Shown: piece by piece, positions 7,023 to 9,410 of the stretch
Position numbering within the stretch: position 1 is the first letter of the stretch
Layout: every line of letters begins with the position of its first letter
Assembly: GCA_030038695.1 (NCBI GenBank)
Contig: JASHSN010000277.1
Span: 1-17,415 of the forward strand
Direction: 5' to 3'
Origin: Nitrososphaeraceae archaeon
Lineage (GTDB): Archaea; Thermoproteota; Nitrososphaeria; Nitrososphaerales; Nitrososphaeraceae
Length of the DNA: 17,415 nucleotides
Notes under the pieces: generated by a model
Told to the model about the DNA's origin: nothing
The model's database searches: none
What the model saw: the letters and a program-made list of their open reading frames with translations, nothing else
Program-made: the position numbers and the translations under genes

Positions 7023-7442
7023 CTACTTATGACTCTTCTTGGATTTTAGTTTGGCTGCTTCACTTGTTAGAGGAGCCGATTCGCCTATCTGTTGCACTGT
7101 ATCCTTCACCGTTTCACCTATCCCGCGTGCTGCCACAACTGTTTTCTCCACGTTGACAGCAGTATCCTTAATCACGCCACGTTCTTTCAGCTCTTTAGCC
7201 GTTTCATTAATTTCCTTTGTGGTATCTCTTGCTGCGACCACCGCTTCATGGACAGCTGTTGCTAGTTCATCAATCGCGCCGCTCTGATGTACAGCTCGCA
7301 CGACATCTCTCATCCTTGCAGATGCTTCTCGAATATTACTTGCGACTTCTCTTATCGTATCGATAGTCTTTTGTGTCGAGGGATCTACAGTCGCTGTTGC
7401 ATCGGGACTTGAATTAATATCATCCGGTATTGAAGACGACAT
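7023..7442 (-). CDS. long amphipathic-helix protein, function unknown
   Basis: A 139-residue protein with no hydrophobic segment. After a disordered Ser/Asp/Thr N-terminus (residues 1-23), nearly all the rest is predicted helix rich in Ala, Val, Glu, Lys and Thr. Quasi-repeats such as TIREVASNIREASARMRDVV, VHEAVVAARDTTKEINETAK and VEKTVVAARGIGETVKDTVQ recur. The tail is lysine-rich (KLKSKKSHK). This resembles LEA-like, YtxH-like or apolipoprotein-like helical proteins that coat membranes or form coiled coils. The start is ATG at 7442, with TATA box tttatatta 25 bases upstream, so the message is probably leaderless. Tandem repeats further upstream (7497-7538) may regulate it. A stress or membrane-surface role is inference only. 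Confidence 0.7.
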   Translation of the reverse strand: MSSSIPDDINSSPDATATVDPSTQKTIDTIREVASNIREASARMRDVVRAVHQSGAIDELATAVHEAVVAARDTTKEINETAKELKERGVIKDTAVNVEKTVVAARGIGETVKDTVQQIGESAPLTSEAAKLKSKKSHK

Positions 7443-7460
7443 TGTATGGTATATGTCAGA

Positions 7461-7471
7461 ATAATATAAAG
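7461..7471 (-). promoter_or_regulatory. TATA box of the helical-protein gene
   Basis: Read on the minus strand, ctttatattat is centred about 25 bases before the ATG at 7442, fitting a leaderless transcript. Confidence 0.55.
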
Positions 7472-7496
7472 AGGTATGCTTTCCTACTATTAGTTG

Positions 7497-7538
7497 TTGC
7501 TACCTATCTGTGTACCAAAATTGTTACCTATGTGTGTA
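7497..7538. repeat. 24-bp-period tandem repeat upstream of the helical-protein gene
   Basis: TTGCTACCTATCTGTGTA (7497-7514) and TTGTTACCTATGTGTGTA (7521-7538) agree at 16 of 18 positions. They lie 30-70 bases upstream of the TATA box, a position suited to an activator or repressor site. A shorter echo, TTGCTGTGTA, follows at about 7553. Confidence 0.45.
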
Positions 7539-7725
7539 ATTGCAACAATTAGTTGCTGTGTACGCAATATGATGGCTCATTCAAAATATAGAGAACATTT
7601 TCTGTTCCTCAACCGGTTAGAAGGGGAGTAGGCGCTACCTATCTTCTAGCTATTTCATAATCGAAAACTTGCATCATTGTCTTTTTCGTAATTGCGTCAT
7701 CTGATATTACACTTATTCATTAAAG
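7539..7725. other. intergenic region between divergent promoters
   Basis: No coding frame or stable structure seen. It separates the minus-strand helical-protein promoter from the inverted-repeat-bracketed gene. Confidence 0.4.
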
Positions 7726-7759
7726 AGTTATAATAGAGTTAAACGAATTTCGTATAAAG
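7726..7759 (+). repeat. left inverted repeat carrying the His-rich gene promoter
   Basis: This 34-base segment matches the reverse complement of 8339-8372 at 30 of 34 positions, including a perfect 18-base block AACGAATTTCGTATAAAG (7742-7759). Weaker matching continues inward for about nine bases. The cgtataaag portion is centred about 26 bases before the ATG at 7781, so the repeat contains the core promoter. Confidence 0.75.
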
Positions 7760-7780
7760 ATTATTTCTATTCTGAGGGGC

Positions 7781-8224
7781 ATGAATACAATTGCAAGAAA
7801 ACTGTCTATCTTTGTCTTAATGGCGGCAGCAGCAACGACGGCACTGATGATTGGGGCAACAACCACTTTCGCAGCTTCTAATACTCACACACAACACATG
7901 CGACCCATGGGTAACAATGATAGCTGGGCTAGCAGCTTTACCCATACACCAACTAATTTGACGCGTTATGACGACGGCGGCTTCAGCTCCGCACAGTATG
8001 GATGGAGTCACCCGCACCACTCTCATAGCTCAACAGATATGATCGCTGATTTCAACGGTGATAATTCGAATAGTACTACTGGCAGTGACGACCATGGGGG
8101 CTTCAGCTCCGCACAGTACGGATCATCTGGCAGTCACCATCCCCATCACACGAACAGCGGCGTTAATTCAAGTTGGATGTGGCCTACACATCATAGCCCA
8201 TCAGACATTGTTGATATCAACTGA
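7781..8224 (+). CDS. secreted histidine-rich protein with two 40-residue-spaced repeats
   Basis: A 147-residue protein: signal peptide 1-31 (core FVLMAAAATTALMIGATTTF, cleavage near FA-AS), then a low-complexity mature part rich in His, Ser, Asp, Gly and Asn. GGFSSAQYG occurs at residues 66-74 and 106-114, exactly 40 apart. Each copy is followed by a histidine cluster (SHPHHSHSS; SHHPHHTNS), with further His pairs near the C-terminus. The DNA of the repeats is also nearly identical. His clusters suggest metal (Cu, Zn, Ni) or pH-dependent binding outside the cell; this is inference. Upstream are both a TATA box 26 bases away and a GAGGGG just before the ATG, so leaderless and SD-led translation are both possible. 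The gene is bracketed by inverted repeats. No named family recognised. Confidence 0.75.
   Translation: MNTIARKLSIFVLMAAAATTALMIGATTTFAASNTHTQHMRPMGNNDSWASSFTHTPTNLTRYDDGGFSSAQYGWSHPHHSHSSTDMIADFNGDNSNSTTGSDDHGGFSSAQYGSSGSHHPHHTNSGVNSSWMWPTHHSPSDIVDIN
7979..8118 (+). repeat. 120-base-period internal direct repeat
   Basis: GGCTTCAGCTCCGCACAGTA at 7979-7998 is repeated exactly at 8099-8118, encoding GFSSAQY in both copies. Identity at synonymous sites suggests a recent duplication or gene conversion within the His-rich gene. Confidence 0.7.
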
Positions 8225-8338
8225 GATCAGCAATACAAGGAATGCGCTGCCATTATTTTTTATAAGGACATAATTTTAGCGAAACTAAGCAGTGTTTTGA
8301 ACCGTACAAGCACATGTTACCCACATTGCAGAGATATT

Positions 8339-8372
8339 CTTTATACGAAATTCGTTGGACTCGGTTATAACT
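8339..8372 (-). repeat. right inverted repeat, promoter-like on the minus strand
   Basis: Partner of 7726-7759. Read on the minus strand it carries the same AACGAATTTCGTATAAAG block and an upstream agttataa. By the same spacing a transcript would begin near 8314 and run antisense into the 3' end of the His-rich gene; no minus-strand gene starts there. A T-rich tract (8375-8401) lies just outside. Confidence 0.7.
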
Positions 8373-8747
8373 AGGTTTTTAGCTTTTTTTCTTTTATTTT
8401 TGATGAGGAAATGTACCTAGTATTTCGCCAAAGGAAATCCAGTCATTTGCCTAATTCTTTATTGCGTTATGAAAGAAAAAGTTCTTGGGGATACACGGAT
8501 TCAAAGTTGTAGGATATGAAATCAGAAACATTTAAGAGGAATTCACATGGGTAAATCCGATATAACAATTAGTCCACTAGATTCGGCGTTGTATTTTGGT
8601 GAAAAATAGATGATGGATTTATAGCTCGGTACTTGGCGATTCAAACCATCCTTCTTTAAAGAAGTTTGTTTCTGTAACAAATTTTAGAAGTGTATCTTAT
8701 AACTGTAAGCTATCATGAATTAATACACTTGCTGTTATAGATGACAC
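8373..8747. other. intergenic region with a possible broken small ORF
   Basis: A T-rich tract (8375-8401) could terminate the His-rich gene mRNA. At 8547 an ATG preceded by AGAGGA opens MGKSDITISPLDSALYFGEK and stops at 8609. Adding one A to the A5 run would extend it IDDGFIARYLAIQTILL to 8659. A perfect palindrome, CTTCTTTAAAGAAG, lies at 8651-8664. The AT-rich aattaatac at 8718-8726 is the likely TATA box of the next gene. Confidence 0.35.
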
Positions 8748-9410
8748 ATGGTAGACAAGAGAGTAGGATGTGATGTCTGTGGAAAATCGTTCCATTCCAG
8801 AAAGCGCTTAGAACAACATACTCGGAGCACACATACTACCGTGAATAAGAATAACGTGATTAAAGCTGTCAAAAAACCTTTTAAGATCTCTAACAAATTG
8901 ATTGCAGTAATTGCCGCAGGCGCTCTAATCGCGATTGTTGGCAGTATTGCGACATATTATGCCAGGGATCATGCTGCTGCATTAACAATAGATGGAATAG
9001 GGTGTAACCCGATGGAACAAGCCGTCTTCCACATACATGCTCATTTGGATATCATCATTAACGGTGTATATTTTCTAGTGCCATCTCAAGTAGGGATACC
9101 CAGTAACTGCTTTTATTGGCTGCATACTCATGATGAATCAGGGATAGTACACATCGAAGCACCAATGCACAAAGACTTTACATTAGGTCAATTCTTCGAT
9201 ATATGGGGGAAGAAACTGAGCAATGATCAAATATTTAACTATGTGGCCGGGGTTAATAATCCTCTAAACGTATACGTCAACGGAACTAAAGTGCCAGACG
9301 GAACAAATTACAGAGATATCAAGCTAAATGCACATGATGAAATTGCAATAGTTTATGGTTCTCAGCCATCCACAGTACCTACAAGTTATACATTTCCAGA
9401 AGGCACATGA
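8748..9410 (+). CDS. membrane-anchored C2H2 zinc-finger protein with His-rich outer domain
   Basis: A 220-residue protein in three parts. Residues 8-29 form a C2H2 zinc finger (C8-x2-C11-x12-H24-x4-H29). A basic linker leads to one transmembrane helix (about 50-71). The remaining 150 residues would lie outside the cell. They contain a conserved His/Cys block: C86, HIHAH (H95, H97, H99), C121 and YWLHTHDESGIVHIEAP (H126, H128, H135), then FTLGQFFDIWGKK. The outer block resembles a domain seen in archaeal and actinobacterial hypothetical proteins; metal binding is likely but unproven. Topology (positive residues before the helix) puts the finger in the cytoplasm. The ATG at 8748 has a TATA-like box 26 bases upstream. 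A role in sensing or tethering is speculative; the architecture itself is clear. Confidence 0.8.
   Translation: MVDKRVGCDVCGKSFHSRKRLEQHTRSTHTTVNKNNVIKAVKKPFKISNKLIAVIAAGALIAIVGSIATYYARDHAAALTIDGIGCNPMEQAVFHIHAHLDIIINGVYFLVPSQVGIPSNCFYWLHTHDESGIVHIEAPMHKDFTLGQFFDIWGKKLSNDQIFNYVAGVNNPLNVYVNGTKVPDGTNYRDIKLNAHDEIAIVYGSQPSTVPTSYTFPEGT

Follow-up and report, generated by a model that had tools for sequence, protein, structure and literature searches.

A candidate promoter module shared by secreted-looking histidine-rich protein genes of one archaeal genus, and a probable orphan copy facing one of these genes

A conserved operator or promoter element marks a known general kind of archaeal regulon, and convergent, overlapping promoters with cis-antisense RNA are likewise a known arrangement. 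The locus analyzed here resembles both and departs from both. As in archaeal regulons of the operator or promoter kind, a conserved block surrounds a TATA box, keeps a nearly constant spacing to the start codon and recurs before several scattered genes; unlike in those regulons, the block extends over approximately 60 nt, has strong copies in one genus only, and is tied to genes that are alike in their N-termini. As in convergent promoter pairs, a putative right-hand promoter is directed into a sense gene at its 3′ end; here, however, both putative promoters are copies of a single module. A third comparison concerns a possible role only, with the zinc exoprotein ZepA under Zur in Anabaena (PMC10957091). 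Like ZepA, the proteins considered below may be exported, may handle metal outside the cell and may be placed under one shared transcriptional control; unlike ZepA, they form a multigene archaeal family. A literature search listed no paper on either the promoter or the protein family, and neither ‘histidine’ nor ‘promoter’ is present in the main text of two Nitrosopolaris-related papers.

The window, that is, the whole 17,415-nucleotide stretch of DNA analyzed, corresponds to contig C472 in the draft genome of an archaeon (3.75 Mb in 679 contigs, 78.5% complete, 5.13% contamination). Some named homologues of the 147-residue protein encoded at the locus are from Candidatus Nitrosopolaris, and record names suggest that the host belongs to this genus, whose members are described as putative ammonia oxidizers of polar and alpine distribution (PMC10117904).

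Two arms of the window, 7726-7759 and 8339-8372, are inverted copies of each other at 30 of 34 positions and bracket a single open reading frame (ORF) at 7781-8224. These features, reported by the first-pass annotation, were confirmed from the sequence, as was its uninterrupted 18-base block (7742-7759 and 8339-8356, exact), which is also the longest run of identity that the arms share. A repeat finder extends the arms to 7726-7768 and 8330-8372 (43 nt, 86%). Among the inverted repeats listed for the window none is longer, the runner-up having 29 nt at 72%. A 17-base core occurs exactly in the own genome only at the two arms, the remaining matches there carrying two or three mismatches. Each arm contains an inward-pointing TATAAAG, the first T of which precedes an ATG by 28 nt in the left arm and by 30 nt in the right, so that the inward TATA-like boxes at leaderless distance described earlier are indeed present. 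The accompanying claim that the arms bear promoters holds as far as sequence can tell, the arms being part of a conserved module in which an ATG follows the TATA box by 28–31 nt in all 20 aligned copies.

Alignment of these copies defines a module of about 60 nt with the consensus AAACTTAGTTATAATGAAGTTAAACTAAnTTCGTATAAAGGATATCTCT followed by ATG, and a mean pairwise identity of 66% over 58 columns. Counted from the first T of TATAAA, the ATG lies at 30 nt in 13 of the 20 copies; the ATG was taken as the first to open at least 60 codons, or, at the right arm, which has none such, as the start of the longest frame. In archaeal promoter geometry such spacing corresponds to transcripts almost without a leader. 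Upstream of the TATA box, the conservation, with AGTT steps approximately 10–11 nt apart in the consensus, suggests a candidate regulator site. The left module occupies 7720-7783 on the plus strand, with TATAAAG at 7753-7759 and ATG at 7781-7783, and its predicted promoter activity would drive the 147-residue histidine-rich gene.

Copies of this module recur before similar genes. With the bracketed region as query, the first matches were arm-like sequences directly upstream of ORFs on contigs C230, C365 and C444 of the own genome, together with one match each, again before an ORF, in the same-genus genomes G020, G021 and G024. All of these ORFs are secreted-looking and contain histidine, the one in G021 running off its contig. 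A sequence-only model, R1, was then built from seven copies including both arms, and yields 41 rows at E ≤ 1 in six genus genomes, of which 23 reach at least 19.5 bits. Fifteen of these 23 matches neither belong to the model nor duplicate one of its members, and behind 14 of the 15 stands a small ORF that has several histidines and a hydrophobic N-terminus. The fifteenth, G024:C5 (26.3 bits with R1, 19.9 with R2), lies inside an open frame and was left out of the second model. Two of the 18 rows below 19.5 bits were inspected (G021:C2 and G022:C135), and neither precedes such a gene.

The second model, R2, built from 20 copies, finds 22 copies at 41 bits or more, distributed over all six genus genomes. 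Since these are the 20 training copies plus two that are identical to one of them, R2 speaks for specificity, and independent discovery comes from R1. Of the 22 strong copies, 21 start a small secreted-looking, histidine-containing gene, the sole exception being the right arm at the present locus. Recurrence at near-fixed spacing before similar genes thus points to a candidate regulon whose genes have one promoter element in common.

Further scans bear on the specificity of the module. In the 64 other family genomes no R2 match exceeds 20.6 bits, under filters strict enough to miss some weak matches; in 201 sampled genomes of the order, the matches at E ≤ 0.001 that fall outside the genus reach just 20.4 and 18.5 bits. 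Scanned with a weight matrix, the 270,156 positions of 16 loci (L144-L159) give 15 scores of at least 42.6, equal to the number of copies present there, and a next score of 11.8; leave-one-out weight-matrix scores of the 20 copies range from 29.9 to 58.8. An exact-pattern scan of GTDB species genomes returns 22 stretches, six in this archaeal group and 16 scattered over bacteria. Eleven of the 23 R2 rows below 41 bits were inspected: two in genus g7 precede secreted-looking ORFs, and the other nine, G024:C5 included, have no such gene behind them. Genus g7 may hold a divergent form of the module, and the regulon may then be older than the genus. In G043, a genome of g7, weak module-like sequences occur at L098:1501-1548 and L116:1501-1550 (18.4 and 17.8 bits), with a histidine cluster in one of the two ORFs only.

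The gene behind the left module (7781-8224, plus strand) encodes 147 residues, 14 of them histidine (9.5%), with a hydrophobic N-terminus that is signal-peptide-like as judged from hydrophobicity, so the product is secreted-looking. It matches no Pfam or NCBIfam family. A database search returns 96 proteins at E ≤ 1e-3, itself included, the closest homologues being P0005, P0007, P0010 and P0011 at 79-83% identity, and the related-locus search found no relatives of it in genome contigs. An internal coding repeat at 7965-8123 (plus strand) consists of 39-nt copies placed 120 nt apart and in frame. The homologues P0002 and P0006 have 190-191 residues versus 147 here, and length apparently varies by whole repeat units, some homologues having an extra one. 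A run of T just past the gene (8256-8261, plus strand) is a candidate terminator of the sense transcript. The relative on C230 has a similar TTATTTTTT behind its gene; compared with C230 and C365, the 3′ region as a whole scores no higher than the top one of 100 shuffles, though the stop codon is surrounded by a short visible match.

Across the family, 19 of the 20 aligned copies open a frame of 75-226 residues, and the 19 members behind them contain 4.0-12.9% histidine and a hydrophobic N-terminus. These compositions suggest that the proteins are exported and that their histidine clusters may bind metal at the cell surface or outside the cell. Four consecutive histidine codons are not enriched in the own genome (51 sites versus 71 for the reversed pattern). 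Among the 20 distinct ORFs listed with such a run, the promoter stands before three (C230, C313 and C365), the promoter-bearing C444 lying outside the loci examined in this check. Three secreted-looking, histidine-rich ORFs of the own genome (L162, L167 and L172) have no module, with weight-matrix scores of -6.9 or lower; the module therefore marks this gene family and not histidine richness. The C444 member (L040:1128-1808) carries about ten tandem (D/N)QAYGPTAA units between its N-terminus and its histidine-rich tail.

The right module (arm 8330-8372) spans 8313-8415 on the minus strand, with TATAAAG at 8345-8339 and ATG at 8315-8313. Its R1 score is 65.0 bits and that of the left module 55.8 bits, both being training members; on leave-one-out the right copy scores 46.9 versus 33.4 for the left, a value within the range of the gene-bearing copies. 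Its upstream part continues to resemble other family promoters to about 8415. Beyond the repeat, the outer flank aligns above all 200 shuffles for six of the 19 other copies, with scores of 24 for C365 (shuffle mean 10.1; z 7.7, the best), 18 each for C230 (z 5.5), G020a and G024b, 17 for G024e and 16 for G023c. For the other 13 copies, the left copy included (14 of 200 shuffles as high), it does not exceed all shuffles. By BLAST, 8375-8415 is 83% identical to C365.

On the inner side, the flank of the right arm aligns to none of the 19 copies (shuffle test, z at most 1.6). Behind the promoter lies a 20-codon frame at 8253-8315 (minus strand), MCLYGSKHCLVSLKLCPYKK, which has no similarity to family N-termini; a likeness to the C365 start that had appeared by eye dissolved in the shuffle test (z -0.1). 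A candidate decayed family coding sequence at 8225-8313 gave chance-level matches only, and so did the search for a second family coding remnant across 7400-8800 outside the sense gene. Another 20-codon frame, MGKSDITISPLDSALYFGEK at 8547-8609 (plus strand), lies in the otherwise gene-poor stretch outside the right arm and might represent the beginning of a gene since lost.

The inverted repeat is thus most likely a pair of convergent promoters of one family, rather than a pair of transposon ends or inversion sites. This reading holds whether the pair is a local inverted duplication or two independent family members; either may be true, and the differences among copies are too small to decide. 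A local and recent inverted duplication of the left arm as the origin of the right one is not supported. In its favor, the 17-base core is identical in the own genome only in these two copies, and the best match of the left copy is the right copy (42 of 58 ungapped positions), followed by C230 (41). Over the same 58 positions, however, the right copy is closer to C230 (44) and C444 (43) than to the left copy (42).

What the right-hand promoter does, or once did, can be read in several ways. We favor, with fair though not full confidence, two convergent, genus-specific, near-leaderless promoters, of which the left drives the 147-residue gene and the right has been orphaned by the loss, or the non-arrival, of a second family gene. 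The left module would start an mRNA with almost no leader, encoding a histidine-rich protein that is probably exported. The right module would once have served a second family gene transcribed toward the first, the coding part of which was lost or never came along, recent loss being the favored course. It would now be an intact orphan which, if the presumed shared regulator permits, starts a transcript near 8315 that enters the 3′ end of the histidine-rich gene. Gene loss is preferred over selected antisense control because R1 and R2 searches found no second convergent pair in the six genus genomes, all of them drafts. As 7400-8800 yielded no coding remnant above chance level, the putative loss is deduced from absence. 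The main contrary evidence is that the right copy is undecayed (46.9 versus 33.4 for the left), which counts against a long-dead relic; the 13 of 19 copies for which the outer flank stays within the shuffles also weigh against this reading. Such an orphan copy would let nature itself provide a test case for convergent transcription in archaea.

The same intactness favors the next reading, in which selection has kept the right module as a co-regulated antisense promoter, one signal setting off both sense and antisense transcripts, so that the histidine-rich gene limits its own output. The minus strand has no run of five or more T from 8313 to 7500, so a transcript started at the right module could cross the whole gene in antisense. 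The uniqueness of the pair among the six draft genomes weighs against this reading, and we regard it as rather unlikely. A wider proposal, that in an ammonia-oxidizing lineage one module runs a regulon of rapidly diverging secreted histidine-rich proteins and that its second copy here is a co-induced antisense promoter capping the sense gene, we consider unlikely as a whole.

An assembly artefact, in which the right module was joined in from another family locus of the metagenome, would suit the fragmentation and contamination of the draft, and would suit the end of family likeness at the right module's start codon. Against this explanation, the arms share no exact stretch longer than 18 bases, which falls short of the usual assembly words, the inner side is unlike other copies, and no shared word was seen to bridge the junction. 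Such a misjoin is very unlikely.

Another reading takes the 20-codon frame at face value, as a micro-protein with three cysteines and one histidine that the right module drives. Its ATG does stand at the family's commonest spacing of 30 nt; yet it lacks the signal-like N-terminus that all 19 other aligned members have, and has no homology to the family, which leaves this reading highly improbable.

The invertible cassette and the small inverted-repeat mobile unit with a passenger gene, both offered by the first-pass annotation, draw on the geometry of paired inverted arms around one gene, and we judge them barely credible because the right arm remains similar to other promoters beyond the edge of the repeat, the 20 other strong genus copies are unpaired and placed as promoters directly before genes, a Pfam scan of 10 window proteins (six without any family) names no recombinase or transposase, and no target duplication is visible by eye at 7726 or 8372, as had been noted before. 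The guess of a mobile element thus gives way to a concrete, testable candidate regulon in Ca. Nitrosopolaris.

Neighboring genes offer one lead toward a regulator. At 19 family loci no common operon is obvious, and the Pfam families of the neighbors are diverse (42 of 80 listed neighbor ORFs scanned; the best 25 of 39). Genes for HVO_0163-type/ArsR-like winged-helix HTH proteins lie near three of the 17 loci that had a neighbor among those 42 scanned ORFs (L145:4666-5193, L158:4629-5156 and L147:4407-5051), and two of the three look orthologous. Their position is suggestive at most of a candidate regulator of the module. The regulator and its inducing signal, perhaps a metal, would, once found, give these unnamed proteins a role.

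The gene at 8748-9410 (plus strand), also in the window, encodes an N-terminal C2H2-like finger, which falls below the Pfam cut-off, a hydrophobic segment and an exported-looking domain of the form HIHAHL...LHTHDESG. Outside the window, none of its relatives in the genus shares a contig with an R1 match of at least 19.5 bits. Relatives occur in 56 of 70 genomes of the family, and the own genome holds five further matches that are 67-78% identical. The joining of a zinc finger to a membrane or secreted domain, as in this protein, is unusual.
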